Source: Sphingosinicella soli (lineage in GTDB: Bacteria; Pseudomonadota; Alphaproteobacteria; Sphingomonadales; Sphingomonadaceae). Taken from it: a DNA stretch of 64,000 nucleotides. The translations under genes and the position numbers were made by a program. Each line of letters starts with the position of its first letter. Position 1 is the stretch's first letter. This document shows, one piece after another, positions 33,722 to 49,475 of the stretch. The notes under the pieces are model-generated. The model saw only the letters and a list, made by a program, of their open reading frames with translations, did not search any database and had not been told where the DNA came from. Location of the stretch: NCBI RefSeq assembly GCF_014199685.1, contig NZ_JACHNZ010000022.1:1-64000 (forward strand), given 5' to 3'.

Positions 33722-35295
33722 AGTTCGGCCCCGTCCCCCTCGAACGCGCGGAAGGCGCCTGTCTCGCCCACGCGGTGCATGTCGGCGGGCGGCGGATCGC
33801 CAAGGGAAAACGCCTCGATGCGGCGGACATCGCCGATGCCCGCGCGGCGGGGCTTTCCGAACTGGTTGTGGCGGCGCTTGAAAGCGGTGATCTTCACGAG
33901 GATTCGGCGGCGGCCATGCTCGCGGTCGCCTCGGCAGGCTCCGGCCTTACCGCCCAGCCGCCCGCGCACGGCCGCGCCAACATCATCGCCGATGCCGCCG
34001 GGCTGTTGGTGGTGGACGTCGCTGCCGTCGATGCGGTGAACGCCCACGACGAGGGCGTGACGCTCGGCACGCTCGCCCCCTTCGCACCCGCCGCGCAGGG
34101 CGAGATCGTCGCTACGGTGAAGATCATCCCCTTCGCGATTCCCGAAGCGCTCGTCCAAAGCGCGGCGGCAAGCGCGGAAGGCGTGCTGCGGCTGGCGCCG
34201 TTCGGGTCGCTGCGGGCCGCGTTCATCCAGACGACGCTTCCCGGCACGCCCGCCAAGCTGCTCGCCAAAACCGCCGAGGTGACCGAAGCGCGCTGCGCCG
34301 CGCTCGGCCTCGCAGCATGGCGCGAAATGCGCTGTGCGCACACGGCGGACGCGCTCGCGGATGTGCTGGCGGAAACGGCGGATGCCGACCTCGTTCTCAT
34401 CAGCGGCGCCTCCGCGATCAGCGACCGGCGCGACGTGATTCCCGCCGCGATCGAACGCGCAGGCGGCGGCGTGCTGCGCCTCGGCATGCCGGTTGATCCG
34501 GGCAACCTGCTTTGCCTCGCCCGGATCGGCACGCGGCCGGTGATCGGCCTGCCCGGCTGCGCGCGAAGCCCGCGCCGCAACGGCTTCGACTGGGTGCTGG
34601 AACGGCTCTGGGCAGGGCTCGACGTGACCGGGACAGACATTGCCCGCATGGGCGCGGGCGGGCTTCTGGCCGATGTGCCCCGCCCCGAGCCGCGCCCGAA
34701 ACCGGCGGCGGGAGGCCCGGTCGGCGCCATCGTGCTCGCGGGCGGACGGTCCGTGCGGATGGGCGCGAACAAGCTGCTCGCGGACCTCGGCGGCAAGCCG
34801 GTCCTCGCGCATGTGCTGGGCGCGCTGCGCGCCGCAGGGCTCCCGGCGATCGTCGTGACCGGCCACGCGGAGGCGGAGATTGCCGCAACGGCAGCACAGT
34901 TCGGTTTTCCGAGCGTTCACGCCGCGCGCTACGCGGAGGGGCTGAGCCGGTCGCTCGCGGCAGGAATTGCCGCCGCGCCCGCGGACTGGTCGGCGGCACT
35001 GGTGCTGCTCGGCGACATGCCCGGCGTGACCGCGGAACACATCGAAACGCTTGCCGCCGCCGCAGGCGCAGGCCGTATTGCGGTGCCGGTGCATGACGGC
35101 AAGCGCGGCAACCCGGTCGCGTGGGGACGGCGCTATTTCACGCGGCTGCGCGGCATCGACGGCGACGTCGGCGGCAAGGCGCTCCTTGCCGAGTTCGCGG
35201 ACGACATCGTCGAGGTGCCCCTGGAAAGCGACGCGATCTTCATGGATGTGGACACGCCAGAAGCCCTCGCAGCGGCGCGGTCGCGCTACATCTGA
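33718..35295 (+). CDS. fused MoeA-like/MocA molybdenum cofactor cytidylyltransferase
   Basis: 525 residues in two halves. About 1-315 is a molybdopterin-binding-like domain (GRRIAKGKRLDAADIADA, the NAHDEGVTL region, VLISGASAISDRRD, VIGLPGCARSP). About 335-525 is an NTP-transferase (MocA/NTP_transf_3) domain with the nucleotide loop VLAGGRSVRMGANKLLADL and LLGDMPGVTAEHI. It probably makes molybdopterin-cytosine dinucleotide for a CO-dehydrogenase-type hydroxylase. GTG start. Converges on recX with a 10-base overlap. Confidence 0.87.
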   Translation: MKFGPVPLERAEGACLAHAVHVGGRRIAKGKRLDAADIADARAAGLSELVVAALESGDLHEDSAAAMLAVASAGSGLTAQPPAHGRANIIADAAGLLVVDVAAVDAVNAHDEGVTLGTLAPFAPAAQGEIVATVKIIPFAIPEALVQSAAASAEGVLRLAPFGSLRAAFIQTTLPGTPAKLLAKTAEVTEARCAALGLAAWREMRCAHTADALADVLAETADADLVLISGASAISDRRDVIPAAIERAGGGVLRLGMPVDPGNLLCLARIGTRPVIGLPGCARSPRRNGFDWVLERLWAGLDVTGTDIARMGAGGLLADVPRPEPRPKPAAGGPVGAIVLAGGRSVRMGANKLLADLGGKPVLAHVLGALRAAGLPAIVVTGHAEAEIAATAAQFGFPSVHAARYAEGLSRSLAAGIAAAPADWSAALVLLGDMPGVTAEHIETLAAAAGAGRIAVPVHDGKRGNPVAWGRRYFTRLRGIDGDVGGKALLAEFADDIVEVPLESDAIFMDVDTPEALAAARSRYI

Positions 35296-35966: not shown

Positions 35967-37751
35967 TTGCTGAATCGCACTTCGGATTCAAGCGCATTGG
36001 CGCTGTCCGGCGCGGAAGACACGGTGACGGCCCCAACGCCGACGCTCGATGATCTGCCGCGCCGCCTTGCGGACTTCAACACGCTGGGCGAGGCGCTGGA
36101 TTATGCGGCGCAGGGCAAGCGCGGCCTCAATTTCTTCGATGCGCGGGCGCGGCTTGCGCGGGTCATGACCTTCGCCGACCTCAAGGCCGATGCCACCGCA
36201 AACGCATACCGGCTGATTGCTGCGGGCATCAAGCCGGGCGACCGCGTGGCGCTGATCGCCGAGACGGGCGCGGATTTCGTCAGCCTGTTTTTCGGCGCGA
36301 TCTATGCAGGCGCGCTGCCCGTGCCGCTGCCGCTGCCCACCTCGTTCGGCGGCCGCGAAGGGTATGTCGACCAGATCCGCAGCCAGCTGACGTCCTGCGA
36401 TCCCGAGATCGTGCTTGCGCCTTCCGGCCTCTCCGCGATCGTCGCGGAGGCCGCCGCAGGCCTGCGCTGCCGCACCGCGCACGACTGGCTCGATTTCACG
36501 GCGCGCGATGCGAAACCCGCGCCGCTGCCGTCCGCCCGCAAGAGCGACATCGCCTACCTTCAGTATTCGAGCGGCTCCACGCGCTTTCCGCACGGCGTCG
36601 AGATCACGCATGAGGCGCTTCTCGCCAATCTGAACGGCCATGCCGTCGGCGTGAACCTGCGCCGCGACGACCGTGTCATTTCGTGGCTGCCTTATTATCA
36701 CGACATGGGCCTCGTCGGCTGCCTGATGGCGCCGATCGCCAATCAGGTCTCCGCCGACTACCTCGCCACCGAGGATTTCGCGCGGCGTCCGCTGTCGTGG
36801 CTGGCGCTCATCACGCGCAACGAAGGCCACAGCCTCTCGTATTCGCCCACCTTTGGCTACGACATCTGCGCCCGCCGCGTTTCCAGCCAGACCGATGTCG
36901 CCGAGCGTTTCGACCTTTCGCGTTGGCGCGTCGCGGGTAACGGCGCCGACATGATTCGTCCCGACGTGATGAACAGCTTTGTCGAAGCCTTCGCCCCTGC
37001 GGGCTTCAAGGCGGGCGCGTTCCTGCCGAGCTACGGGCTTGCCGAAGCGACGCTCGCCGTCACCATCTCGCCCGTGGGCGCCGGTATCGTGACCGACCTG
37101 GTCGATGAGCGCCTGCTTTCGGGCGAGCGCGAAGATGGGGGCGCAGGCACGGGCCGCATGCGCGAGATCGTGAACTGCGGCGTCGCGCTTCCGGGCATGG
37201 AAATCGAGATCCGCGACGACGCCGGACGCCGCCTCGGCGACCGTTTGATCGGCAAGGTGTTCGTGGCCGGACCCAGCATCATGACCGGCTATTTCCGCGA
37301 CGAAATCTCCACCCGCGCCGCGCTTCAGGGCTGCTGGCTCGACACCGGCGACATGGGCTACATGCTGGAAGGCGCGCTCTACATCGTGGGCCGCGCCAAG
37401 GACATGATCATCATCAACGGCAAGAACCACTGGCCGCAGGACATCGAGTGGGCGATCGAGCAGCTTCCGGGCTTCAAGGCAGGCGATATCGCCGCGTTCT
37501 CGATCACCACGGAAGGCGGAGAGGAAGCGCCCGCCGTGCTCGTGCAGTGCCGCACCAGCGACGCCGCAGAGCGCGCCGAACTCCGCGAGACGATCAAGAC
37601 CAAGGTACGCACCATCACCGGCATGAACTGCATCGTCGAACTCGTGCCGCCGCGCGCGCTGCCGCGCACCAGCTCCGGCAAGCTCAGCCGCTCCAAGGCG
37701 CGCGCGCTGTACCTCTCCGGCCAGATCCAGCCGTTCGACATCGCGGCCTGA
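35967..37751 (+). CDS. fatty acyl-AMP ligase / acyl-ACP synthetase for sphingolipid synthesis
   Basis: About 594 residues. Activates a fatty acid as acyl-adenylate and loads it on an ACP. Adenylation motifs: YLQYSSGSTRFPHGVEITH, SWLPYYHDMGLVG, LPSYGLAEATLA and LDTGDMGYM. DMIIINGKNHWPQDIEW is the fatty-acyl-AMP-ligase (FAAL) version of the A8 region. First of four same-strand genes ending in serine palmitoyltransferase. In Caulobacter a similar synthetase, ACP and CerR flank spt, so I infer it charges the ACP at 38744. Start TTG, alternatively ATG 35916. Confidence 0.88.
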   Translation: MLNRTSDSSALALSGAEDTVTAPTPTLDDLPRRLADFNTLGEALDYAAQGKRGLNFFDARARLARVMTFADLKADATANAYRLIAAGIKPGDRVALIAETGADFVSLFFGAIYAGALPVPLPLPTSFGGREGYVDQIRSQLTSCDPEIVLAPSGLSAIVAEAAAGLRCRTAHDWLDFTARDAKPAPLPSARKSDIAYLQYSSGSTRFPHGVEITHEALLANLNGHAVGVNLRRDDRVISWLPYYHDMGLVGCLMAPIANQVSADYLATEDFARRPLSWLALITRNEGHSLSYSPTFGYDICARRVSSQTDVAERFDLSRWRVAGNGADMIRPDVMNSFVEAFAPAGFKAGAFLPSYGLAEATLAVTISPVGAGIVTDLVDERLLSGEREDGGAGTGRMREIVNCGVALPGMEIEIRDDAGRRLGDRLIGKVFVAGPSIMTGYFRDEISTRAALQGCWLDTGDMGYMLEGALYIVGRAKDMIIINGKNHWPQDIEWAIEQLPGFKAGDIAAFSITTEGGEEAPAVLVQCRTSDAAERAELRETIKTKVRTITGMNCIVELVPPRALPRTSSGKLSRSKARALYLSGQIQPFDIAA

Positions 37752-37764
37752 CGCCGCTCCGCGT

Positions 37765-38673
37765 ATGACGACGCTCGCCATCACCGGCGGAACCGGCTTC
37801 GTCGGGTCGAAACTCATCGATCTTGCACTCGAAAAGGGGCACGGGGTCCGCGCGCTCGCCCGCCGCGCGCAACCGGCGCGGCCGGGGCTCGAATGGGTGA
37901 CCGGCGATCTTGCAAACGGCAGCGCGCTCGCCCGGCTCACGGAAGGCGCAGATGCCGTAATCCATGTCGCGGGCGTCATCAATGCGCGGAGCCCGCTCGC
38001 GTTTGCGGCAGGCAATGTCGAGGGCACGCGCGCCATGCTGGAGGCGAGCCGCAACGTGCCGCGTTTCGTCCACGTCTCCTCGCTCGCGGCGCGCGAACCG
38101 GCGCTCTCCATCTACGGCAACACCAAGGCCGCCGCCGACGCGCTCGTCGAAACCGCGCGTCCCGACGCCGCGATCGTGCGTCCGCCCGCCGTCTACGGGC
38201 CCGGCGACCGCGAGACGGCGAACGTCTACAGGCTCGTCGCGCGCGGCTGGGCCTTGCTGCCGGGGCGCGGGCGGTTTTCCGTCGTCGAGGTCTCGGACCT
38301 TGCAAGCGCCCTGCTCGCCCTTGCCCAAAGCCCGTCCGCCCAGGGGATCTTCGAGATCGACGATGCGACGGCAGGCGGGCTCAGCCACCGCGACATGGCC
38401 GCGTACATTGCCGCCGCGCTCGGCAAGGCGCCGATCTATGTGCCGTTGCCGTCTGCGGCACTGATGCTCGGCGCCGCGATCGACACGCTCGGCGCGAAGC
38501 TCTCCGGGCGCCTCCCCGCGCTCAGCTTCGACCGCGCGCGCTACCTCGCGCATCCCGATTGGGTGGCCGACAGCACGCGCCTTCGCGCGCTCGGCATCTG
38601 GGCGCCCGAGGTGCCCGCCGCGCAGGGCATCGCACGCACGGCGGAATGGTACAGGAATGCAGGCTGGATTTAG
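37765..38673 (+). CDS. SDR/NAD(P)-dependent reductase, CerR-like
   Basis: 302 residues, extended SDR fold. The nucleotide loop is AITGGTGFVGSKLID and the catalytic Tyr-Lys pair is in YGNTKAAAD (about 113-121), with VRPPAVYGPGD downstream. It lacks sugar-nucleotide epimerase context here. Its position between the acyl-AMP ligase and ACP/spt genes matches CerR of Caulobacter, which reduces the 3-keto group of the sphingoid base or ceramide. Function inferred from position. Confidence 0.83.
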   Translation: MTTLAITGGTGFVGSKLIDLALEKGHGVRALARRAQPARPGLEWVTGDLANGSALARLTEGADAVIHVAGVINARSPLAFAAGNVEGTRAMLEASRNVPRFVHVSSLAAREPALSIYGNTKAAADALVETARPDAAIVRPPAVYGPGDRETANVYRLVARGWALLPGRGRFSVVEVSDLASALLALAQSPSAQGIFEIDDATAGGLSHRDMAAYIAAALGKAPIYVPLPSAALMLGAAIDTLGAKLSGRLPALSFDRARYLAHPDWVADSTRLRALGIWAPEVPAAQGIARTAEWYRNAGWI

Positions 38674-38743
38674 GCTGCCCGCCCGCCTATCCCCTGCCAC
38701 AATCTGTTGGCATCGAACCGCAACGACATTTCGGGACACACGC

Positions 38744-38992
38744 ATGGCGCACACACGCGAGACCATCCTTCCAAAGCTGATGGAACTGATCGAGCCGCTG
38801 AACCGCAGGGGCATCGCGCTTACCGGGGACACGAGCTTCGCCAGCGACCTTGAGCTGGACTCGCTGACGGTGATGGACCTCGTCGCCAATATCGAGGACG
38901 AATACGACATCATCCTGCCGATGAACCTGCTCCCCGAACTGGAAACGATCGGCCAGCTCGCCGACGCCGTCGCCCGTATCGTGAACGGTTGA
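38744..38992 (+). CDS. acyl carrier protein of the sphingolipid locus
   Basis: 82 residues. The phosphopantetheine Ser lies in SDLELDSLTVMDLVANIED (LDSL). The N-terminus (MAHTRETILPKLMEL) and acidic helix III are ACP-like, but it is clearly distinct from a housekeeping AcpP. Probably receives acyl chains from the ligase at 35967 and delivers them to serine palmitoyltransferase, whose gene starts 8 bases after its stop. Confidence 0.9.
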   Translation: MAHTRETILPKLMELIEPLNRRGIALTGDTSFASDLELDSLTVMDLVANIEDEYDIILPMNLLPELETIGQLADAVARIVNG

Positions 38993-39000
38993 GGCGAACG

Positions 39001-40209
39001 ATGGCTGACCTCTTCGACAAATTCGACCCCATCATCGCCGAAAAGGCCGCGCTGCTGGCAACCGGGGTCAACGACCCGTTCAACCTGGTGATGGAGCAGG
39101 TCCACTCGCCGACCGAGGCGACGGTGAACGGGCGCGAGACCATTCTGGTCGGCACCTACAACTACATGGGCATGACCTTCGACCCCGACGTGATCGCGGC
39201 GGGCAAGGAGGCGCTCGACCGATACGGCGCGGGCACCACCGGCAGCCGGGTGCTGAACGGAACGTATCAGGGCCACCGCGATGTCGAGGAGGCGCTGAAG
39301 GATTTCTACGGCACCGACCACGCGATGGTGTTTTCCACCGGCTATCAGGCGAACCTGGGGCTGATGGCGACGATGGCGGCCCGCGGCGAATACATCATAC
39401 TCGACGCGGACAGCCACGCCTCCATCTACGACGGCTGCGCGATGGGCAATGCCGACATCGTGCGCTTCCGCCACAACAGCGTCGAGGATCTCGACAAGCG
39501 TCTCGGCCGCCTGCCTGCGGAGGCGGGCAAGCTCGTCGTGCTCGAAGGCGTCTATTCGATGCTCGGCGACATCGCACCGCTGAAGGAGATGGTCGCGGTC
39601 GCGAAGAAACACGGCGCGATGACCGTGGTGGACGAAGCGCACGGCATGGGCTTCTTCGGCCCGAACGGGCGCGGCGTCTATGAGGCCGCAGGCGTGGAGG
39701 CGGACGTCGATTTCGTCGTCGGCACCTTCTCGAAATCGGTGGGTACGGTGGGCGGCTTCGTCGTCTCCAACCACCCGAAGTTCGAAGTGCTGCGCCTCGT
39801 CTGCCGCCCCTACGTGTTCACCGCCTCGCTGCCGCCGAGCGTCGTCGCGACCGCCGCAACGTCGATCCGCAAGCTGAAGCACGCAGAGAGCAAGCGCCAG
39901 CATCTGTGGGAAAACAGCCGCAAGCTGCATGGCGGGCTGAAAACCAAGGGCTTCACCATCGCCACCGAGACGGCGGAAAGCGCCATCATCGCGGTGCTGA
40001 TGCCCGGCCAGGAAGCCTGCGCGCGCATGTGGAGCGCGCTGATCGAACTCGGCATCTACGTCAACATGGCGCGCCCGCCCGCGACGCCTGCGGGCATGTT
40101 CCTGCTGCGCTGCTCGCTCTGCGCGGAGCACACGGCGGAGCAGGTGGACATCATCATCGCGCGCTTCGTGCAGGCGGCGGGGATCGCGGGGATTCCGCTC
40201 AACGCGTAG
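39001..40209 (+). CDS. spt: serine palmitoyltransferase (soluble bacterial type)
   Basis: PLP enzyme (402 residues) of the alpha-oxoamine synthase family that condenses serine with a long acyl thioester, the committed step to sphingolipids. Seen: TYNYMGMTFDPDVI, GTTGSRVLNGTYQGHRDVE, DADSHASIYDG (stacking His), VDEAHGMGFFG (Asp binding PLP) and GTFSKSVGTVGG (Schiff-base Lys). The preceding dedicated ACP argues for serine palmitoyltransferase rather than KBL/ALAS/BioF. Its 3' end overlaps the convergent MBL-fold gene by 11 bases. Confidence 0.93.
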   Translation: MADLFDKFDPIIAEKAALLATGVNDPFNLVMEQVHSPTEATVNGRETILVGTYNYMGMTFDPDVIAAGKEALDRYGAGTTGSRVLNGTYQGHRDVEEALKDFYGTDHAMVFSTGYQANLGLMATMAARGEYIILDADSHASIYDGCAMGNADIVRFRHNSVEDLDKRLGRLPAEAGKLVVLEGVYSMLGDIAPLKEMVAVAKKHGAMTVVDEAHGMGFFGPNGRGVYEAAGVEADVDFVVGTFSKSVGTVGGFVVSNHPKFEVLRLVCRPYVFTASLPPSVVATAATSIRKLKHAESKRQHLWENSRKLHGGLKTKGFTIATETAESAIIAVLMPGQEACARMWSALIELGIYVNMARPPATPAGMFLLRCSLCAEHTAEQVDIIIARFVQAAGIAGIPLNA

Positions 40210-40954
40210 CGGCGACGTTCAGGCGTTGCTCGTATTCGTCGGCCAGCCTGCGAAGCGCCTCCGCGCCGTCTCCGCGGAAGGATGAGCCGTGCATCACGGC
40301 GAGCAGGCTGGGCGCCAATTCGGCCAGTCGGCGCAGCGTCGGCGCGGTATCGGGCGTCAGGCTGGTTGCCCCGAACATGTCTTCTGCGGCCATGGCGGCC
40401 GGAATGATGTCGCTTTCTGTTACGGCCTCGCCGTCCCCGACCTGCGTGAACACATCCCCGCAAAAGAGTGTGGAGGTCGTTTCCTCGTAGAGCATCTGCG
40501 CCTCCCAGCCGTGCGGAACATGCGGCGTGGGAACAAGCCGGACACGCTTGCCGCCGAGATCCATCACCGCGTCCTCGCCAAGCGACCGGGGCGCACGGTC
40601 TGCGAGATCACTCACCGAGATATTGCACCCGAGCGGGCTGTAGACGACCTGCGCGCGGGGCGCGGCTTCAAGCCACAGGTTCATCGCGCCGCATTCATCG
40701 GCCTCGATATGCCCGAAACTGATCCAGCGGAGGCGATCGAGCGGAATGAGCGCCGCGACGGCTGACGACACCGATGGGAAGAGCGACCGGGGGCCGCAAT
40801 GAAAGAGCAGCGGTTCATCCGCCACGATCAGAAATTGATTGAACGTGAACCCCGCAGGCGGCGCAACATCGGCGACATGCGTCGACAGGCGGTGGATGCC
40901 CGGAGCGATCTCGGTGGTTCGCGTATGGATAGGGGCCTCCCTTCGAAAAATCAC
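40199..40954 (-). CDS. metallo-beta-lactamase-fold protein of the sphingolipid locus
   Basis: About 243-251 residues. MBL/flavodiiron-like fold: FNQFLIVADEPLLFHCG, FGHIEADECGAMN in place of the usual HxHxDH, HVPHGWEAQMLYEE, TLFCGDVFTQVG and LLAVMHGSS. It may bind one or two metals as a hydrolase or a lipid-modifying enzyme; the substrate is unknown. GTG 40954 is the only standard start. A perfect AAGGGAGG (40936-40943) instead points to ATC 40930, where family-like sequence begins (HTRTTEIAPGIHRLS). Last gene of a four-gene operon. Confidence 0.8.
   Translation of the reverse strand: MIFRREAPIHTRTTEIAPGIHRLSTHVADVAPPAGFTFNQFLIVADEPLLFHCGPRSLFPSVSSAVAALIPLDRLRWISFGHIEADECGAMNLWLEAAPRAQVVYSPLGCNISVSDLADRAPRSLGEDAVMDLGGKRVRLVPTPHVPHGWEAQMLYEETTSTLFCGDVFTQVGDGEAVTESDIIPAAMAAEDMFGATSLTPDTAPTLRRLAELAPSLLAVMHGSSFRGDGAEALRRLADEYEQRLNVAATR
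40936..40943 (-). promoter_or_regulatory. strong SD placed before an ATC codon
   Basis: Minus strand AAGGGAGG then CCCCT then ATC-CAT-ACG (ATC at 40928-40930). No ATG/GTG/TTG lies between here and the conserved domain. Either a rare AUC start or a chance match inside a GTG-started gene. Confidence 0.4.
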
Positions 40955-41037
40955 CCGAACGGATGTATCCGGCTTTTTTGACGAAGCCGTAACAGAAGTC
41001 GAGCTTCGGTTTGCGGCTGCGAGACCTTCGATCGCGA

Positions 41038-41955
41038 TTACCGTATCGCGCCCTTGCGGATCAGCTGGGGCAGGAACACCAGCCCGGCAAGTATCGGAAA
41101 GCGGCGGTGCCACGGCTTCACGATGATCCCGGCGTCCGCGTGCCGGTTCACCTTCCACGCGATGTAATCGACGCCGCCCTTGAACGTGAAACTGGCCTTG
41201 GCGAGCCGCAGCATGGAGAGCAGCTTGCCCCGGCGGCGCAGCTTCCCCCACGTTCGTCTGCCGTGCGCGCGGTCGGCATCGGCGCGAAAATGCACGGTCC
41301 CGCCGCGCAGCTCCGCTGCAAGATCGCTGTCGGCGATGGCGGGGGCGGTGAACGCGGTGTAGCGCGCCGGATCGGCTTCGAAGATCGACCGCCCGCGCCC
41401 GGAACGCTCGGACCGGAGTTCGGAGGCATAGGTGAGCGCGAAGGCGCCGGTCCACAGCGCCTCGACACCGAGATCATCGTCCAGCATCGGCCGCGCGGTC
41501 TTGAGCAGCGTCGGCGCGGCGGCGGCAACCGCGCGGATCACGCGCGCGCGCGCCGCATCCCCGCGTACCCAGACAAGCCGCGAAGGCTGCGCGAACCGCG
41601 CCCAGACCGATGCGTTGTCGCAATCCGGCGAGCAGGCGTGCGCGAAATCATCAACGGTCATCACCGCGAACTTTGCGCGCAGACCTTCATGTTCGGCATA
41701 AAAAACATTGGGCGGAATCAGCCGGTTCGCCACCGCCATCCACCGGCGCGTGTAGGCGCGATCATAGGAATCGACGAGCAGATAGAAATCGAGCAGCGAA
41801 TCCGCCAGGTCTTCGCTCCTGAGGCACGAGCCGTAGTACAGCACGGCCTGCGCCGCGCCGCCGCAGCGCCCGGCGATGGCCCTGGCAAAATCGGCGACTT
41901 CAGGGGCGGCGGGCGTTTCCAGCTCGTCCGCGACCAGCGGCACGAGCGCCGTCAT
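41038..41955 (-). CDS. unrecognised protein, possible nucleotidyltransferase-like fold
   Basis: 305 residues. I do not recognise a characterised family. The segment VLYYGSCLRSEDLADSLLDFYLLVD resembles the G-S-x(n)-D-x-D start of nucleotidyltransferase folds, here as D-F-Y. The middle has CDNASVWARFAQPSRLVWVRG and the C-terminus a basic, amphipathic segment (KPWHRRFPILAGLVFLPQLIRKG) that could touch membrane. The start overlaps the stop of the lipid-kinase gene by 4 bases (ATGA), so both are made together. Likely acts on the phosphorylated ceramide, but that is inference. Confidence 0.7.
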   Translation of the reverse strand: MTALVPLVADELETPAAPEVADFARAIAGRCGGAAQAVLYYGSCLRSEDLADSLLDFYLLVDSYDRAYTRRWMAVANRLIPPNVFYAEHEGLRAKFAVMTVDDFAHACSPDCDNASVWARFAQPSRLVWVRGDAARARVIRAVAAAAPTLLKTARPMLDDDLGVEALWTGAFALTYASELRSERSGRGRSIFEADPARYTAFTAPAIADSDLAAELRGGTVHFRADADRAHGRRTWGKLRRRGKLLSMLRLAKASFTFKGGVDYIAWKVNRHADAGIIVKPWHRRFPILAGLVFLPQLIRKGAIR

Positions 41956-42923
41956 GCCGCAAGGTTGAGGAAGGACACCGGTGCTGTCGGCGTCAGCACG
42001 ATCGAGCGCCCCTCTCCGGCCTCGTAAAGTTCACCGTCGAGAATCACGCTGGCGCGCTTGCCCTCGATACGGATCTCGTCGCCGCGCCTGAGATGCAGTC
42101 CGCTGAAGCGCGCGCTGCCGAGCCGCCCGGCGAGCGCGGACACGAGGGCCATCAGCACGGTCGTCCGGCGCTGCTCGATCGCCATCAGCTTCAGGGGACC
42201 GGCCCGGTCGCTGAACGGCGTGGCGAAATTGAGCAGCAGGCGTTCGAGCGTCGTCACCATCAGCACGAGGAAACTGCCCTCGACCGGCACGCCGCCCCGA
42301 TGCAGCGAGACGCGCATCGGGCTCGTCTTCACGGGGTTCCAGCGCGCGCCCGCGCCGAGGAGCACGCTTACCAGCACCACGAACGTGGCGATCAGGTGGC
42401 TCACCCAGTTCGGCAGGCCGAGCGGGTAGATCTTGTTGCGGCAGAACAGGATCGCCTCGGCAAGACCCGCACCACCCAGAAACATCCCGAACACGGGGCG
42501 CGCCGCAAGGCCGTCGCTCAGCGCGATGAGCTGCCGCGCCACGACGTGTGGATCAACCCCCGTCTCGACGATCTTCAGGATATTGGCGAGCGCCTCCACC
42601 GGATTGGCGCCCGCACCCAGATCGAGCGCGATGAGATTGGTCTTGCCGTTCGGCAGCACCGCGAGCGGCGGCACCGCACCCTTGAAATGGTGGCCGTTGT
42701 AGATTTCGGTGAGCGCCGCCTGCACGGTGCCGTCGCCGCCGTTGATGACGAGAACGGCAGGCTTGACGCGCGCGATCATGGCGAGCGCGTCGGGCACTTC
42801 GGAAATGTCTCCCACCTCGTAGTGGAAAATGTTGGGATGCTGCGCCACGAATTCACGGATGCGCGGCAACGCGGCTTTGTTGCCGGTCGAGCGCGGATTG
42901 GAAAGAAGCGCAACACAAGCCAT
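41952..42923 (-). CDS. diacylglycerol/ceramide-kinase-like lipid kinase
   Basis: 323 residues, DAGK-catalytic family. The N-terminal nucleotide site reads LLSNPRSTGNK, VINGGDGTVQAALTEIYNG and AVLPNGKTNLIALDLG. The GGDGT loop is intact. A hydrophobic stretch (about 175-200) and a C-terminal beta domain (FSGLHLRRGDEIRIEG, VILDGELYEAG) follow. Housekeeping DgkB/YegS homologues usually stand elsewhere; here the gene lies between spt and DUF2141/lptFG-like genes. This matches the position of the Caulobacter ceramide kinase (CpgB/CerK), so phosphorylation of ceramide is the favoured inference. Confidence 0.85.
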   Translation of the reverse strand: MACVALLSNPRSTGNKAALPRIREFVAQHPNIFHYEVGDISEVPDALAMIARVKPAVLVINGGDGTVQAALTEIYNGHHFKGAVPPLAVLPNGKTNLIALDLGAGANPVEALANILKIVETGVDPHVVARQLIALSDGLAARPVFGMFLGGAGLAEAILFCRNKIYPLGLPNWVSHLIATFVVLVSVLLGAGARWNPVKTSPMRVSLHRGGVPVEGSFLVLMVTTLERLLLNFATPFSDRAGPLKLMAIEQRRTTVLMALVSALAGRLGSARFSGLHLRRGDEIRIEGKRASVILDGELYEAGEGRSIVLTPTAPVSFLNLAA

Positions 42924-42924
42924 A

Positions 42925-43473
42925 TCAGTCGCGCCTTGCCACAAGAGGTTTCACGGAGAGCAGACCCTGACGATAGTTCAGGATCACATCGACAACGGTG
43001 ACGCCGCTGCGCGCGACGAACATCGATTCTTCATAGTCGGGTTTGGCAAGCCCCAGTTTGGGATTGCCCGAAAAACCCACGCCATCCTTTGAAACGGAAA
43101 GTTTGCCGTTCATGTCGCGATCGTGGAGCACCGCCATCGAAAACTCGCCGAAGCGGGGCAGCGCCATGCAGATGTTCATGTCGCCCGATGCCGTCATCGG
43201 CAGTTCGATCCGCTTGAGATACTTGCCCTTTTCAAGAAACTCGTGGGCTTTATCGCTGTAAACCTGGGTGCGGAGATTGCCTTCGCGATCCTTGAATCCG
43301 TAAACGCGGATCAGCGCGGCAGGGCCTTTCGCGCCCGGAGCGCAGGCCGCCGCATCGGGGCCGATGATCGTCTGAGCCGAGGCGGACGCTGAAAACGCGC
43401 CGAAAACCGCCGTGGTCGCCACAAGCGAACGGATCAGCCCCCGAGAAAACGCATTTGAATTTTTCAGCACCAT
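42925..43473 (-). CDS. DUF2141 secreted protein
   Basis: 182 residues, DUF2141 family, unknown function. A signal peptide (about 1-33, ending ASASAQT) precedes a beta-rich domain: LIRVYGFKDREGNLRTQVYS, SMAVLHDRDMNGKLSVSKDGVGFSGNP and VDVILNYRQGLL. Members are frequent beside lipid and carotenoid genes. First gene of the minus-strand operon of the sphingolipid locus; 1 base separates it from the lipid-kinase start. It shares a 118-base divergent promoter region with the LptF-like gene. Confidence 0.85.
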   Translation of the reverse strand: MVLKNSNAFSRGLIRSLVATTAVFGAFSASASAQTIIGPDAAACAPGAKGPAALIRVYGFKDREGNLRTQVYSDKAHEFLEKGKYLKRIELPMTASGDMNICMALPRFGEFSMAVLHDRDMNGKLSVSKDGVGFSGNPKLGLAKPDYEESMFVARSGVTVVDVILNYRQGLLSVKPLVARRD

Positions 43474-43591
43474 GTCTCTCCTCGATCGTCCCCCTTTTTC
43501 GAATCACCAAATAGTTGATGCATCGCTGCTCTCCCGTGGTATCGGGTCCGCTTGCGGCCAAAGTTTGACCAAGGATCGACAAAACCAAGAG

Positions 43592-44815
43592 ATGCTGGCT
43601 CGGTTCGACAGGTACATGGCGCGGCTGATCGCAGTGCCGCTGTTCGCGACACTGATGATCGCGGCCATGCTGCTATTGCTGGAGAAGATGCTGAAATTGT
43701 TCGACTTCGTGGTCAACGAAGGCGGGCCGGCATCGGTCGTCTGGCGCATGCTGGGCAACCTGATTCCGCAGTATCTGGGCCTCGGCATCCCGGTCGGGCT
43801 GCTGCTGGGTATTTTGCTGGCGTTCCGCGGCCTCGCACTTTCGAGCGAACTTGATGCGATGCGCGCGGTCGGCATTAGCTACATGCGGATGCTGCGCGTG
43901 CCTTATATGTACGCGCTGCTGCTCGGCCTTCTCACGCTGATCATCGTCGGCTTCATCCAGCCCATCAGCCGCTATGCCTACGAGGGGCTGGAGTTCGAGC
44001 TGCGCTCCGGCGCGCTCGGCGCGACGATCGACGTCGGCGAGTTCGTGCAGGTGGCGCGCAATACGACGCTGCGCGTCGAGGAAAGCCGCAGCCAGGGCCG
44101 CGACCTGCGCGGCATCTTCGTCAGCGGCCGGAGCGGCGACGGCAAGACGGTTTCCGTCACCGCCGCGCGCGGCACCTTTCTGGCGACCGACGACCCCGAT
44201 GTCATCCTGCTGAGGCTCACCGACGGCACGCTCGTCCACGACGCGCCGGGCTACAGGCAGCCCCGCGTGCTGAGCTTCCGCATGCACGACCTGCCGATCG
44301 ACCTTCCGCAGATCGAGCTGTTCCGCATTCGCGGCGCACAGGCCGACGACAACGAGTTGACCCTCCCGGAACTCTACCGCGTCGGCTATCTCGGCCAGGG
44401 CGCCGCCACCGAGGAAAGCCGGAACGCCGTGCGCGCCAACCTGCACCGGCGGCTGGTGCAGGTGTTCGCGGTGCTGGTGATCCCGCTGCTTGCGGTTGCG
44501 CTCGCGGTGCCGCCGAAGCGATCGACATCGGCGGTCGGCGTGTTCGCGGCGCTTACGATTCTGATCGTTTACAACGAGATTTCAGAGGCGGCGGAGCGCG
44601 CGGGCGCCGCAGGCAAGGCCGACATCATCCTGAGCCAGTGGGGCAGCTTCATCGCGTTCAGCCTGCTCTGCGCCTGGTTCTTCCACGTGCTTGCGAACGT
44701 GCCGGGCGGGCAGCCGATCGCCGTGATCGAGCGCGGCGCGGGCATTGCCGCCAAATGGGTCGTCAGCCTGTGGCGTCTGCTGCGCCGGCGCTTCGGAAAG
44801 GCGCAGGCGGCATGA
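43592..44815 (+). CDS. LptF-like (YjgP/YjgQ) lipid-export permease
   Basis: 407 residues, LptF/LptG family. Three N-terminal membrane segments (about 12-35, 55-75, 95-120), a periplasmic beta domain (about 135-270), and three C-terminal segments. Family text: FDRYMARLIAVPLFATLM, GIPVGLLLGILLAFRGLALSSELDAMRAVGIS, LPELYRVGY and LLAVALAVPPKRSTSAVG. LptFG normally pulls LPS from the inner membrane with LptB. In this locus, and given that sphingomonads use glycosphingolipids in place of LPS, sphingolipid export is plausible. Start ATG 43592. Stop overlaps the LptG-like start. Confidence 0.88.
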   Translation: MLARFDRYMARLIAVPLFATLMIAAMLLLLEKMLKLFDFVVNEGGPASVVWRMLGNLIPQYLGLGIPVGLLLGILLAFRGLALSSELDAMRAVGISYMRMLRVPYMYALLLGLLTLIIVGFIQPISRYAYEGLEFELRSGALGATIDVGEFVQVARNTTLRVEESRSQGRDLRGIFVSGRSGDGKTVSVTAARGTFLATDDPDVILLRLTDGTLVHDAPGYRQPRVLSFRMHDLPIDLPQIELFRIRGAQADDNELTLPELYRVGYLGQGAATEESRNAVRANLHRRLVQVFAVLVIPLLAVALAVPPKRSTSAVGVFAALTILIVYNEISEAAERAGAAGKADIILSQWGSFIAFSLLCAWFFHVLANVPGGQPIAVIERGAGIAAKWVVSLWRLLRRRFGKAQAA

Positions 44816-45915
44816 GCGGCGCGCTTACCTTCTGGCCCTCCCCGACCATCGCGACCTACACCGCGCGCATGTTCATGCTGCGGACGCTCGCCTTCGCGAT
44901 CGGCCTGGTGGCGATCCTGCAAACGCTTGATCTGCTGACCGAATCGAACACGATTCTCGCCGTCGACGGCAACGGCAACCCCGAACTGCTGCGCTATGTG
45001 CAGCTTCGGCTGCCGCAGCTCGTCTCGCAGTTCCTGCCGTTTTCGGTGCTGCTCGGCGCGCTGGTGACGATGACGACGCTGAGCCAGAACAGCGAGGTCA
45101 CGATCTTTCGCGCCTCCGGGCTTTCCGCTCACCAGATTCTCTACCCGATGATGGCGGCCGCGCTCGGCGTCTCGCTGTTCCACTTCGCCTTCAACGAACT
45201 CGTTCTCGTCCGCACCAACGCCGAACTCATCGCCTGGGAGAAGGCGGAGTACCGGAACGACGCGACGATCGACACCAATCCGCTTTCCGATGTGTGGGTG
45301 CGCGAGGGCCGCGAGATCATTCACGCCGACAGCGTGACCGGAAGCGGCGCGCAAACGCGGCTCCACGGCGTGCGCGTCGATCGGCGCGACGGCAGCCGCC
45401 TGCGCCAGATCATCAACGCAGAAAGCGCGCGCCCCGACGGCAATGCGTGGCGCCTCGACAACGTGCGCATCTTCACCGTGCGGACGGGTGCGCTTTCGAA
45501 CGCGGCGCAGATCCGGCTCGGCGCGGGCATCGAGCCGGATCGCTTCACCATGCGCGCGCCGGACCCCGACCGAACCGACATCATCGCGCTCTGGAAACAG
45601 ACACGCCTTCTCGAATCGGTCGGGCGCGGCACGGATTCGCTGCGCGTCGCGCTTTACCACAAGATTTCGCTGCCGCTTTCCGCCGTGCTCATGCCGCTGC
45701 TCGGCGCCGTCACCGCGTTCGGGCTCGCCCGGTCGGGGCGGCTGTTCGCGCGCGCTGTCGTGGGCATGGTGCTTGGCTTTGCGTATTTCGTCGCCGACAA
45801 TTTCATGGTCGCGATGGGCGAATTCGGCACCATACCGCCGCTGGCGGCGGGCTGGGCGGCGTTCGTGCTGTTCTTCCTGGTCGGCGAAGCCGTGCTGTTC
45901 AGGACCGAGGAATGA
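44812..45915 (+). CDS. LptG-like (YjgP/YjgQ) lipid-export permease
   Basis: 367 residues, partner of the LptF-like protein. Pattern: TARMFMLRTLAFAIGLVAI, FLPFSVLLGALVTMTTLSQNSEVTIFRASGLS, a periplasmic jellyroll (about 130-260), and LPLSAVLMPLLGAVTAFGLARSGR. ATGA overlap with the gene before, and the flippase start overlaps its own stop, so three membrane proteins are translated in series. No LptB ATPase, LptC or LptA is present in the window. Confidence 0.88.
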   Translation: MSGALTFWPSPTIATYTARMFMLRTLAFAIGLVAILQTLDLLTESNTILAVDGNGNPELLRYVQLRLPQLVSQFLPFSVLLGALVTMTTLSQNSEVTIFRASGLSAHQILYPMMAAALGVSLFHFAFNELVLVRTNAELIAWEKAEYRNDATIDTNPLSDVWVREGREIIHADSVTGSGAQTRLHGVRVDRRDGSRLRQIINAESARPDGNAWRLDNVRIFTVRTGALSNAAQIRLGAGIEPDRFTMRAPDPDRTDIIALWKQTRLLESVGRGTDSLRVALYHKISLPLSAVLMPLLGAVTAFGLARSGRLFARAVVGMVLGFAYFVADNFMVAMGEFGTIPPLAAGWAAFVLFFLVGEAVLFRTEE

Positions 45916-47453
45916 CGCGCCCCGACGATTCGGGCAAAACGGGAATCAGCAAGAAAACGGTGGTGAGAAGCGCGGGTGTCGTTGCGATGGCCCGGCTCGG
46001 CGCGCTGATAGAGGCGGTCGCGCAGCCCGCCTATGTCTGGATGTTCGGCCTTGCCACCTACGGCATCTACATGGCGCTGTGGGCCGCTGTGAACATCGTG
46101 TCGAACGTCGCCGACCTTGCCATGACAAGCGCGATGCAGCGCACCATCCCGCAGGCGAAAACCGAAGAACGCGCGCACAGCGCACTGAAGACCGCGCTCG
46201 TTATCGGCATGGTGCCGAGCATCATCATCGCCCTCGGCGTCAGCACCTTCGCGGCGCCCGTCGCGGCGCTGTTCAATGCCGCGCCCAGGGATGCGGCGTC
46301 GCTGGAACTGGCCGTCGCGCTGTTCGCCTGGGCGCTGCCGCTCTGGACGTTCGTGGAACTGGCGACATCCGCCTCGCGGGCGCGCAAGGCGTTCGGGCCG
46401 GAAGTGCGGCTCAGGATCTTCTGGGAACAGATCGTGCGCCTGCTGATGGCGGGGGCCGCATGGCTCGCCGGCTGGATGACGATGGGCCTCGTCGTCGCGC
46501 ACCTCGCCTCGCTCGCGATCACCGCGGCGCTCGGCTGGCGGCTGCTCGCCCGCTACTACAATGTCCCCATGCTGATCCGCGCGCCGTTTGACAGGGACGT
46601 GCTGCGCGATCTGCTCGGCACGGGTCTCGGCATTCTGCCCGCCAATATCGCGGTTCGGGCGTTTTCCGACATGCCGCCGCTGCTGCTCAACATGCTTCTG
46701 CCGGGCGCTGCGGGCGCCAGCGCATCGGGCCTTTTCGGCATCGCCCGGAAGATCGCCTCGATCCCGCTCATCGTGCGTCACAGCCTGTATTACGTCATTC
46801 AGCCCCTCGCGGCGGAGCAGGCGATCCACGACAAGCATCGCATCAACCCGGTCTACGGCTTCGCCTCCCGTCTCTCGATGATCCTGCTGCTGCCGATGTC
46901 GCTGCTTCTGGCGCTGCTCGCCGGGCCGATGCTGATGCTGTTCCCGCCCGAAGCGGCAACGGCGGCCGCGCTGATCGTGGTGCTGACGCTCGCGCGCGGC
47001 GTCAACGCCATCGCGGGGCCGGCGAACGGCATCCTCCAGATGCTGCGGCCCCGCATCCTGCCGACGGCGAACGCGCTTGTCGGCGTTGCCGTATGGCTGC
47101 TCGTCTCGTGGCTGCTGTGGGGCCGCGATCCCGCGCTCGCGATGGCGTGGGGCGTCGCCTGCGGGGCGTTCGTGATGGAGTGGCTGGCGCTGGCGGAACT
47201 CTGGCACACCGATCGCATCCACCCGTTCGCGGCGCCGTTCGCGCGGGGCATCGTGATCCTCGGCGGTTCATCGCTGCTGATCTGGGCGCTGCTGGGCAGC
47301 CATCAGCCGTTTCCCTTGTGGCTCGACATCGCCTTGCCGGTCGTCGCTGCCCTGAGTCTGGTCTGGCTCGGCCTTCGCGTCGTGCTCACGGCGCAGGAAC
47401 GGCAAAGCCTCGGCGCGATCGGGCGCAGACTCGGGCTATCGCGCGGCAAATAG
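45912..47453 (+). CDS. Wzx-like lipid-linked saccharide flippase (MOP superfamily)
   Basis: 513 residues with about 12-14 membrane segments. It resembles polysaccharide/lipopolysaccharide flippases: a start with VVRSAGVVAMARLGALIEAV, the amphipathic FNAAPRDAA loop and paired helices throughout. Coupled to the LptG-like gene by ATGA. In this neighbourhood its cargo may be a glycosylated ceramide or an undecaprenyl-linked sugar; sequence alone does not decide. Confidence 0.8.
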   Translation: MTRPDDSGKTGISKKTVVRSAGVVAMARLGALIEAVAQPAYVWMFGLATYGIYMALWAAVNIVSNVADLAMTSAMQRTIPQAKTEERAHSALKTALVIGMVPSIIIALGVSTFAAPVAALFNAAPRDAASLELAVALFAWALPLWTFVELATSASRARKAFGPEVRLRIFWEQIVRLLMAGAAWLAGWMTMGLVVAHLASLAITAALGWRLLARYYNVPMLIRAPFDRDVLRDLLGTGLGILPANIAVRAFSDMPPLLLNMLLPGAAGASASGLFGIARKIASIPLIVRHSLYYVIQPLAAEQAIHDKHRINPVYGFASRLSMILLLPMSLLLALLAGPMLMLFPPEAATAAALIVVLTLARGVNAIAGPANGILQMLRPRILPTANALVGVAVWLLVSWLLWGRDPALAMAWGVACGAFVMEWLALAELWHTDRIHPFAAPFARGIVILGGSSLLIWALLGSHQPFPLWLDIALPVVAALSLVWLGLRVVLTAQERQSLGAIGRRLGLSRGK

Positions 47454-47547
47454 CGGCGGCGACCACAGTGCCGTCCAAAATATGCCGCATTGCCGCGAAA
47501 TAAAGACAGCTGATGGCGGTTAGACCGCGAAGCGCAGGATAATCAGT

Positions 47548-48321
47548 ATGCAGGTGCTCAAGGGCTATCGGCTCGGCATGTGGAGCAAGAGCCACAATCT
47601 GTCGAAGATGACGTTCCGCGAGCTCGTCGTCGCCTATTTCCAGTATTATGCGATCCAGGCGTATCTGCTGCTGACCGTGGCCTGCGCTTATGTCGCGGTC
47701 GCCTATCCCACGACGCTGCTGCGCGGCGCGGCTGCCGCCGGTATCGCCGTTGCGGCCTATCCGCTGGCGTGGTTCCTGCTCCACCGCTACGTCCTCCACA
47801 GCAACTGGATGTTCAAGTCGCCGCTGACGGCGCGCACGTGGAAGCGCATCCATTACGATCACCATCAGGATCCCAACCACCTCGAGGTGCTGTTCGGCGC
47901 GCTTTACACGACACTGCCGACCATCGCGCTCGTCACCATCCCGATGGGCTATGCGATCGGCGGCATCGGCGGCGCGGCATGGGGCTTCGGCGCCGGGCTG
48001 CTCACCACCTGCTTCTACGAGTTCTGCCACTGCATCCAGCATCTCTCCTACAAGCCGCGCATGCCGTGGCTGGTGGAGATGAAGACCCGCCACATGGAAC
48101 ACCACTTCCACGACGAAGACGGCAACTTCGGCATCACCAGCTTCCTGTGGGACAAGCTGCTCGGCACCTATTACCAGCGCGCCGAACGCCCGGAGAAAAG
48201 CGAGACGGTGTTCAACCTGGGCTACACGCCGCAGGCCGCCGAGAAATGGCCGTGGGTATCCGAGATGTCGGGCGGCGTTGCCGAAGGGCACCCTCGCCAG
48301 CGCCTGAAAAAAGCGGCCTGA
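47548..48321 (+). CDS. fatty acid hydroxylase/sterol desaturase family di-iron enzyme
   Basis: 257 residues. Membrane segments at about 30-50, 55-78 and 125-150. The histidine clusters that bind two irons are complete: HRYVLH, HYDHHQDPNH, HCIQH and HMEHHFHDED. The family hydroxylates or desaturates lipid chains, including the 2- or 4-position of sphingolipids in eukaryotes. It is followed after 8 bases by the candidate ceramide synthase gene, so acting on the sphingoid base or N-acyl chain is the likely role. Confidence 0.88.
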   Translation: MQVLKGYRLGMWSKSHNLSKMTFRELVVAYFQYYAIQAYLLLTVACAYVAVAYPTTLLRGAAAAGIAVAAYPLAWFLLHRYVLHSNWMFKSPLTARTWKRIHYDHHQDPNHLEVLFGALYTTLPTIALVTIPMGYAIGGIGGAAWGFGAGLLTTCFYEFCHCIQHLSYKPRMPWLVEMKTRHMEHHFHDEDGNFGITSFLWDKLLGTYYQRAERPEKSETVFNLGYTPQAAEKWPWVSEMSGGVAEGHPRQRLKKAA

Positions 48322-48329
48322 TTCCAGCG

Positions 48330-49475
48330 ATGGGGGGCGGCATCGAGATCCGGCCGGTCGTGAGCGCGGCCGACCGCAAGACGTTCATCGACCTGCCGTG
48401 GGCGCTGTACGCGCACGACCCCAACTGGGTGCCCCCGCTGAAATCGGAGGTCGCAGGCCTGATCGGCGGCGCGAAATCCAATCCGTGGTTCGAACACGCC
48501 GAGGCCGTATTCTGGCTGGCATGGCGGGATGGCAAACCCGTGGGCCGCATCTCCGCGCAGGTCGACCAGCTGGTGCTGAAGCACATGGGCGCGGGCACGG
48601 GCCAGTTCGGCATGTTCGAATGCGTCGACGATCCGGCGGTCGCGGCGCTGTTGCTGGACACGGCCGAGACGTGGCTGAAGGCGAAGGGCATGACCCGGTC
48701 GCTCGGGCCGTTCAGCCTGTCGATCTGGGACGAACCCGGCCTTCTGGTGAGCGGTTTCGAACTGCCGCCGACGGTGATGATGGGCCACCATTTGCCCTAT
48801 TACGAAGGCCTGATCGAAAACCGCGGCTACGCGGGCGTGAAGGATCTTTACACCTACGAGCTTCCGATCGCGGCCGGCTTTCCGCCGGCGTTCGACCGCA
48901 TCGTCGCGGCAGCCGAGAAATCGAGCCGCATCCGCATGCGCAATGTAGACAAATCGCGTTTCGCCGAAGAGGCGGCGCTGATCCTCGATATCCTGAACGA
49001 TGCCTGGTCGGACAACTGGGGCTTCATCCCGCTGACACCGTCGGAAGTCGCGTATGTCGGCAAGAAGCTGAAGCCGATCGTCTTCGAGGATCTGATCCGC
49101 ATCTGCGAGGTGGACGGCGAGCCCGTGGCGTTCATGATCACGCTGCCCGACGTCAACGAGATGACAGCCGATCTGGACGGCAGATTGCTGCCCTTCGGCT
49201 GGGCGAAACTGCTGTGGCGGCTGCACAAGCCCCGCGTACGCCGCATGCGCGTGCCCCTGATGGGCGTTCGCCAGACGCTGCAGGGCAGCCGGCTCGCCAG
49301 CTTCATGGCGCTGATGATGGTGGAACACGTGCGCCGCGTCGCCGTGAGCGACTACGGCGCGACGCAGGGCGAACTCGGTTGGGTTCTCGACGACAACGGC
49401 CCGATGAAATCCATCGCCGAGATCATCCAATCCAAGATCAGCAAGACGTACCGGATCTACGAAAAGGCGCTGTAG
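48330..49475 (+). CDS. GNAT-fold candidate bacterial ceramide synthase
   Basis: 381 residues, GNAT-superfamily N-acyltransferase often mis-annotated as dATP pyrophosphohydrolase. Characteristic text: DRKTFIDLPWALYAHDPNWVPPL near the N-terminus, LGPFSLSIWDEPGLLVSGF, MGHHLPYYEGLIENRGYAGVKDLYTYE and AELGWVLDDN-like ending (GELGWVLDDNGPMKSIAE). The Caulobacter homologue near spt (bCerS) N-acylates the sphingoid base. No catalytic residue assigned here. Start MGGGIEIRPV is the first credible Met after the hydroxylase stop. Confidence 0.83.
   Translation: MGGGIEIRPVVSAADRKTFIDLPWALYAHDPNWVPPLKSEVAGLIGGAKSNPWFEHAEAVFWLAWRDGKPVGRISAQVDQLVLKHMGAGTGQFGMFECVDDPAVAALLLDTAETWLKAKGMTRSLGPFSLSIWDEPGLLVSGFELPPTVMMGHHLPYYEGLIENRGYAGVKDLYTYELPIAAGFPPAFDRIVAAAEKSSRIRMRNVDKSRFAEEAALILDILNDAWSDNWGFIPLTPSEVAYVGKKLKPIVFEDLIRICEVDGEPVAFMITLPDVNEMTADLDGRLLPFGWAKLLWRLHKPRVRRMRVPLMGVRQTLQGSRLASFMALMMVEHVRRVAVSDYGATQGELGWVLDDNGPMKSIAEIIQSKISKTYRIYEKAL

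Follow-up and report, generated by a model that had tools for sequence, protein, structure and literature searches.

The closest described relative of the locus analysed here is the Caulobacter crescentus sphingolipid cluster CC_1168-CC_1152, in which aasR-cerR-acpR-spt, a gene beside that of the ceramide kinase, LptF/LptG and CerS occupy one region (PMC11324152, Olea-Ozuna 2024; this and the other papers cited are used in part, and what is said of them holds for the parts covered). The same report lists orthologs, including transport genes, from two Sphingomonadales, S. wittichii and Z. mobilis, in which it describes the genes as scattered, suggests a sphingolipid role or Lpt-like export for the second LptFG copies of Caulobacter, and states that how sphingolipids reach the outer membrane is not known (2024). 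No comparison of LptFG copies with lipopolysaccharide (LPS) genes appears in the parts of PMC11324152 covered, and beyond it no other paper on sphingolipid-linked LptFG was found in the literature, judged by title. Both CpgC and the ceramide kinase CpgB (CC_1161 and CC_1160) are needed for ceramide phosphoglycerate (PMC11324152), and the CpgC step is said to proceed 'through a yet unidentified mechanism' (PMC12275187). Here we describe a cluster of 13 genes within 13.5 kb (35967-49475) of Sphingosinicella soli DNA; the window is the whole stretch analysed, positions 1 to 64,000 of NZ_JACHNZ010000022.1 (contig C22 of a 3.76 Mb genome, 99.5% complete). Since the Caulobacter cluster has already been published, the cluster itself is not new; it is real and largely of known kind, and it suggests how sphingolipids acquire a head group and arrive at the cell surface. 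We consider it probable that the cluster serves to synthesise and cap a main lipid of the outer membrane, and to export it, in a bacterium without LpxC. A fuller proposal, in which phosphosphingolipids arise via CDP-ceramide through a Tam41-fold cytidylyltransferase and a dedicated LptFG class took over the Lpt bridge, turning the whole Lpt machine into a sphingolipid exporter in an order without LpxC, is offered tentatively, its chances being somewhat short of even. We infer the reactions and the transport from gene identities, folds, the lack of an LpxC match, the single LptFG pair, co-distribution and a tree.

LpxC is needed for lipid A. No LpxC match was found in this genome or in any of the order genomes sampled (0/118), with E. 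coli and Caulobacter controls positive and other lipid A genes not searched, so this bacterium is most likely without lipid A. LptFG is kept in 115/118 and LptD in 117/118 of the order genomes; the three with SPT and LptD and no LptFG match (G009, G021, G037) are drafts 93-96% complete. The only LptFG pair found in this genome is that of the cluster, both genes on the plus strand: lptF (43592-44815; PF03739, 194.6 bits against a cut-off of 27.9) and lptG (44812-45915; 236.8 bits against 27.9, and a PDB LptG match at 1e-25). One LptC was found, and ordinary lptC-lptA-lptB-rpoN and lptD-surA loci lie elsewhere in the genome, lptB being assigned by position and ABC domain.

The number of LptFG genes was compared with the presence of LpxC and of the GNAT-type candidate ceramide synthase in a class sample of 192 genomes. 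A match to the GNAT protein came up in 31 of these, weakly in three (G169, plus G137 and G247 with 30-31% identity). The 149 genomes that have LpxC but lack a GNAT match carry two LptFG genes in 139 cases, four in 1, three in 3, one in 5 and none in 1, whereas those with both (n=14) carry four in 10, five in 1 and two in 3; at least four genes are thus present in 11/14 genomes with both, as against 1/149 without GNAT. Where GNAT occurs without LpxC (n=17), two LptFG genes are found in 16 genomes and none in 1, and where neither occurs (n=12), none in 6, two in 5 and three in 1. Since the genomes are related, Fisher values for these counts are only indicative.

A tree of joined LptF and LptG sequences (79 rows) is parted by one long branch, with support 100, into 34 LPS-side and 45 sphingolipid-side rows, and the window pair lies on the sphingolipid side. 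The LPS-side rows, which were hand-picked among the matches listed, comprise 26 whose genomes have LpxC but lack a GNAT protein, 7 second pairs of genomes with both, and 1 from a genome with neither. Removal of the longest row (L128), left out of a second tree for its long branch, did not change the split; a second pair, L161, was left out for its length, and both trees are quick searches with SH-aLRT support only. For two of the 7 second pairs (L163, L164) the GNAT protein of the genome reaches only 30-31% identity, and the other pairs of these genomes lie outside the tree. Among the 23 rows labelled as sphingolipid-linked (SL_linked), L149 shows no sphingolipid gene in the fetched 20 kb and L184 lies ~25 kb from GNAT, both in genomes without LpxC, while rows L156, L159 and L162, unlabelled beforehand, fell on the sphingolipid side and are counted there.

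Linkage was examined in the 118 order genomes, in the class sample and in 80 named loci around spt, some of them cut by contig ends. Neighbouring genes were called by tblastn with cut-offs, Pfam being run on 1-2 members per neighbour cluster, so that absences are to be read as 'not found'. The 80 named loci contain acpR in 80 cases, cerR in 49, lptFG and the Tam41-fold gene in 47 each, GNAT in 41, DUF2141 in 32, the kinase in 28, the hydroxylase in 19, aasR in 8, the Wzx-like gene in 7 and the MBL gene in 1. Of the 58 loci longer than 20.5 kb, 39 contain lptFG and 35 contain GNAT, the latter always together with lptFG. Both positions were available for 109 order genomes, the best LptFG match being taken in each, and in 78 of them no more than 15 kb separates LptFG from SPT (10.8 kb at most); ~1 would be expected by chance. 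The genomes left out were the three without an LptFG match named above, G014 (sole SPT match at paralog level, 240 bits), and G001, G002, G006, G024 and G045 (no listed LptFG positions; no lptFG was seen around the spt of G045 or G002). The pair is linked to SPT in 51/53 genomes from the other families of the order as against 27/56 in the window's own family, where it lies away from SPT in 29/56; the linkage is therefore ancient but has been broken in roughly half of the genomes of that family. The clustering in close relatives that the initial annotation looked for is thus borne out by the longer loci and interrupted, for LptFG, within the family itself. These 29 genomes are also what might favour a chance neighbourhood with no common function, an explanation that is hardly credible beside the 78/109 linked genomes and the presence of lptFG in 18 of the 27 class loci outside the order that were fetched around GNAT (L113-L139, some contig-cut). 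The hydroxylase was matched in 21 of the same 27 loci, in one at only 27% identity.

Taken together, conserved linkage, copy number relative to LpxC and GNAT, and the tree support a sphingolipid role for this LptFG. The simplest reading is of two old LptFG types, one per lipid, of which only the sphingolipid type is left in this order. The LptFG pair of the cluster very probably exports a sphingolipid, and the Lpt machine of this genome most likely does so: sphingolipid-type LptF/LptG, with LptB, LptC, LptA and LptD encoded elsewhere, would carry the lipid to the outer membrane. Several observations weigh against this. Genome G171 (locus L133) has spt and GNAT and no match to LpxC or LptFG, which may reflect a diverged pump or another export route; G144, G169 (weak GNAT match) and G180 combine GNAT and LpxC with a single LptFG pair; of the 11 genomes with at least four LptFG genes, two (G137, G247) are those with the 30-31% identical GNAT protein; and LptFG is still found in 6/12 class genomes with neither LpxC nor GNAT. 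Nor do the E. coli LptG lysine positions distinguish the two LptG types: K34, K40, K41 and K62, which we take to touch LPS, were tried as a marker of the LPS type and rejected, a lysine occurring in at most 2/34 or at most 2/45 of the aligned rows. The same 6/12 genomes would suit an alternative in which the sphingolipid-type LptFG exports another lipid or a polysaccharide and its linkage reflects envelope co-regulation only, and transport itself was not studied in the parts of PMC11324152 covered. The copy-number rule and the tree split argue otherwise, as do the position of the Caulobacter LptF2/G2 genes in the cluster and the cofitness of 0.60 between CC_1156 (LptF2) and CC_1159 mutants (PMC11324152), so that export of something other than a sphingolipid seems improbable.

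The proposed capping of the lipid centres on a 305-aa protein encoded on the minus strand (41038-41955). At the thresholds used it had no match in Pfam, NCBIfam or PDB sequences, apart from one meaningless PDB hit (E 2.1). An AlphaFold2 model built from 37 aligned sequences (pLDDT 91) matched Tam41 by Foldseek at 1.9e-8 and by VIA with a Z of 19.0 (7ecd, solved with CTP-Mg; 230 residues, root-mean-square deviation 3.1), followed by 15.7 and 15.3, the next fold reaching 7.3; the suggestion that this protein has no known relative was thereby overturned. Across 69 aligned relatives G42, D56, K95, R120, Q123, E179, R181 and E183 are invariant and S43 is present in 68. The first two acid positions were inspected: the first, D56, is conserved in 69/69, and the second, position 58, is tyrosine in 67, phenylalanine in 1 and histidine in 1, never acidic. 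As far as these two positions go, this accords with the description of Tam41 as retaining a single acid out of the three that mark its nucleotidyltransferase fold (PMC11646218). The gene lies beside that of the kinase and one MBL gene away from spt in the window, and directly adjoins spt at several loci, L113 and L116 among them; by gene order, according to published gene numbers (PMC11324152), it appears to correspond to CpgC (CC_1161/CCNA_01219).

From the modelled fold and this context we put at about even the chances that the protein is a CTP:ceramide-1-phosphate cytidylyltransferase, which would convert CTP and ceramide-1-phosphate to CDP-ceramide, a term that none of the 5.39 million open papers searched contained. 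Its substrate would be supplied by the adjacent lipid kinase (41952-42923, minus strand; PF00781, 49.5 bits against a cut-off of 23.6), a ceramide kinase (CpgB) candidate predicted to make ceramide-1-phosphate. This enzyme has an LCB5/DAG kinase domain with GGDG at 62 and lacks CxxxCxxC, which are CpgB-type features (PMC10331486), and its gene directly follows lptG, on the same strand and with gaps of 46-240 nucleotides, in 7 of the 19 loci in which lptF and kinase were located (36 examined). The head group would then be moved onto CDP-ceramide, possibly by an unlinked CDP-alcohol phosphatidyltransferase. The same succession of kinase, cytidylyltransferase and CDP-alcohol transferase underlies phosphatidylglycerol synthesis. 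Such a transferase is encoded just upstream of the kinase, on the same strand, in L127, and contig C35 of this genome encodes a protein 40% identical to it over 376 aligned positions. A further region, G000:C1:52273-53804, holds two CDP-alcohol phosphatidyltransferase matches on opposite strands, ~1 kb apart.

Some findings speak against this sequence of steps. No Pfam Tam41 model matched any of the 37 relatives (E up to 10) and the kinship is by fold, at 12-16% identity, so that the protein is counted as having the fold and not as a family member. The match to CpgC is by gene order alone, and in the window an MBL gene separates spt from the Tam41-fold gene. The transferase on contig C35 is unlinked to the cluster, with no sphingolipid gene recognised beside it. 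Lastly, the CpgD-like genes of the class loci were unmatched in the 80 named loci and only weakly matched in the window, inside a MobA-like gene; this match (34693-34839) was rejected as a CpgD-like gene.

If the Tam41-fold protein were instead an ordinary CDP-diacylglycerol synthase, the kinase would make phosphatidic acid, diacylglycerol would be recycled and the adjacency to sphingolipid genes would be accidental. Solved Tam41 proteins, one from Firmicutes included, do make CDP-diacylglycerol (PMC11646218), and Caulobacter CpgB phosphorylates diacylglycerol too, in vitro (PMC10331486). We regard this as rather unlikely, given that many class loci place the gene together with kinase, spt, lptFG and GNAT, that Caulobacter CC_1160 and CC_1161 are required for ceramide phosphoglycerate (PMC11324152), and that loss of cpgB leaves phosphatidic acid unchanged (PMC10331486). 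Alternatively, CTP might be used to activate the head-group side (glycerate or phosphoglycerate) and not ceramide-1-phosphate; in favour of this, the Caulobacter route includes a further nucleotidyltransferase, CpgD, which produces CDP-glycerate (PMC12275187). The Tam41 proteins with solved structures, however, have a lipid phosphate as their substrate, and a CpgD-like gene (by Pfam domain and place; NTP-transferase/IspD domain) was found at 20 of 40 loci from class and order (L113-L152), where the head-group-activation role may thus already be taken; this possibility is accordingly judged quite unlikely, and conversion of ceramide-1-phosphate to CDP-ceramide is retained as the preferred role. 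The same 40 loci include CDP-alcohol phosphatidyltransferases in 7 and a metallophosphoesterase in 10, and the 80 named spt loci yielded no match to any of these three kinds of gene.

Ceramide synthesis is assigned to further genes of the cluster. The plus strand carries in succession an AasR-type acyl-AMP/ACP ligase candidate of uncertain start codon (35967-37751; NF006624, 854.1 bits against a cut-off of 600; PF00501), a CerR candidate of the NAD-epimerase reductase family beside acpR-spt (37765-38673; PF01370, 89.5 bits; GGTGFVG motif), a dedicated acyl carrier protein (ACP), the AcpR candidate (38744-38992; PF00550, 43.3 bits; DSL at residue 39), and serine palmitoyltransferase (39001-40209; NCBIfam equivalog NF047603, 758.6 bits against a cut-off of 670). 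Within the 80 named loci the closest serine palmitoyltransferase, 96% identical, is from the metagenome-assembled genome Sphingosinicella sp. MCMED-G19. At the far end of the cluster (48330-49475, plus strand) lies the bCerS/CerS candidate, a protein without a Pfam or NCBIfam match whose AlphaFold2 model (pLDDT 88.7) is a tandem GNAT (Z 24.3), with N-myristoyltransferases also matching (Z up to 16.4). Family matches for spt, ligase, reductase and ACP, together with the GNAT fold, uphold the two proposals of the initial annotation for this part, a Caulobacter-type ceramide route and a GNAT-type candidate ceramide synthase; ceramide synthesis by such a route is almost certain as judged from sequence. 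The ligase and ACP would load the fatty acid, and serine palmitoyltransferase, the GNAT acyltransferase and the CerR-like reductase would yield ceramide. A sphingomonad-like cerR-acpR-spt locus was also met in a record titled Bacillus sp. 2B10 (L024), perhaps a mislabelled or mixed assembly.

All the genes named by the initial annotation are present; it missed the DUF2141 gene between kinase and lptF (42925-43473, minus strand; PF09912, 65.4 bits), and its order of kinase, 305-aa protein and MBL gene needs revision. After the four plus-strand genes ending in spt come the MBL gene, the Tam41-fold gene, the kinase gene and DUF2141 on the minus strand, then lptF, lptG, the Wzx-like gene, the hydroxylase and GNAT on the plus strand. 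Overlaps of 4 nucleotides, as in operons, are found at lptF/lptG, lptG/Wzx-like and kinase/Tam41-fold gene. The proposal that the genes beyond ceramide synthesis modify and export the product is favoured by linkage conserved across order and class where the kinase, the hydroxylase and LptFG are concerned (for LptFG also by copy number and tree), gains little for the Wzx-like gene (7/80) and finds no support for the MBL gene. The latter encodes an MBL-fold ODP-family protein of uncertain start (40199-40954, minus strand; PF19583, 52.6 bits against a cut-off of 27.2); tried as a system member, it was rejected at 1/80 loci and is probably not part of the conserved system, and the claim that no unrelated gene intervenes is not borne out.

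The hydroxylase gene (47548-48321, plus strand; PF04116, 71 bits against a cut-off of 31) encodes a di-iron fatty acid hydroxylase with histidine boxes HYDHH, HCIQH and HMEHH, a proposed ceramide N-acyl hydroxylase. This Scs7-like enzyme would hydroxylate the amide-linked fatty acid of ceramide. Among the 41 named loci with GNAT, 18 have the hydroxylase, 17 a desaturase-cluster gene (the member tested being a fatty acid desaturase), 6 neither and none both; the desaturase-cluster gene lies near the hydroxylase slot in 16/17 loci and elsewhere in L030. A Caulobacter desaturase-family gene has been suggested to hydroxylate the amide-linked acid (PMC11324152), and the simplest reading of these gene contents is that the hydroxylase and the desaturase-family gene represent two unrelated enzymes for one step.

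The Wzx/MOP-type flippase-like protein (45912-47453, plus strand) has 9 hydrophobic segments and matches PF01943 at 27.6 bits, just below the cut-off of 28.2. Besides the named loci already counted, its gene occurs at five loci (L113, L114, L146, L151, L152) out of the 40 from class and order. Identity to the protein of a near relative (L033) is 49%, as against 91% for lptG and 94% for the hydroxylase, so that the gene is not a simple ortholog of the relative's; nucleotide identity with L033 across 45901-47500 is 53-77% over the Wzx-like gene and 79-92% at its edges, as if an allele had been swapped. Two further families recur around spt. One, whose member tested is a CHASE3 hybrid histidine kinase, is found in 55/80 loci (L004:11246-13264 among them), usually right after spt at a median of 1274 nucleotides from the spt start, a place taken in the window by the MBL gene; a role in regulating sphingolipid synthesis is possible. 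The other, whose member tested is a PycTM (Pycsar effector-like) membrane protein, occurs in 29/80 loci (L019:9076-9618 among them), just upstream of acpR on the opposite strand.

This setting turns two open questions, outer-membrane transport and the CpgC step, into simple experiments: with a single-copy pump pair in a bacterium most likely without LPS, there would be no LPS to confuse an export test. If the proposal is true, Lpt machines are not tied to LPS. The data also back a published prediction for sphingomonads, S. wittichii and Z. mobilis among them, that they are able to produce phosphosphingolipids (PMC11324152), here from a cluster with a kinase and a Tam41-fold gene and without a CpgD-like gene.

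Set beside known systems, the cluster shares with that of Caulobacter the gene content outlined at the outset; it differs in that the Caulobacter LptFG genes are second copies beside an LPS system and the window pair is the only one found, and in that the window has the hydroxylase and Wzx-like genes between lptG and GNAT and no CpgD-like gene (PMC11324152). The hydroxylase finds its best solved relative in the ceramide fatty acid hydroxylase Scs7 (4zr0, 4zr1; 1.4e-10), whose histidine motifs it shares, but is bacterial and encoded beside a GNAT-type ceramide synthase candidate. The 305-aa protein resembles the mitochondrial and bacterial CDP-diacylglycerol synthase Tam41 (7ecd, 6ig2, 6ig4) in its fold over 214-230 residues, has one acid at the two motif positions inspected, and departs from it in its low identity, its lack of a Pfam match and its sphingolipid gene context. 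Like CpgC, as judged from the published numbering, it neighbours the kinase gene and lies close to spt; the mechanism of CpgC was called unidentified in 2025 (PMC12275187), whereas the window protein shows a Tam41 fold. Finally, the LptF/LptG pair belongs to the same Pfam family, PF03739, as the LPS-export proteins, yet it lies across the main tree split from them, stands with sphingolipid genes and is kept in genomes without LpxC.

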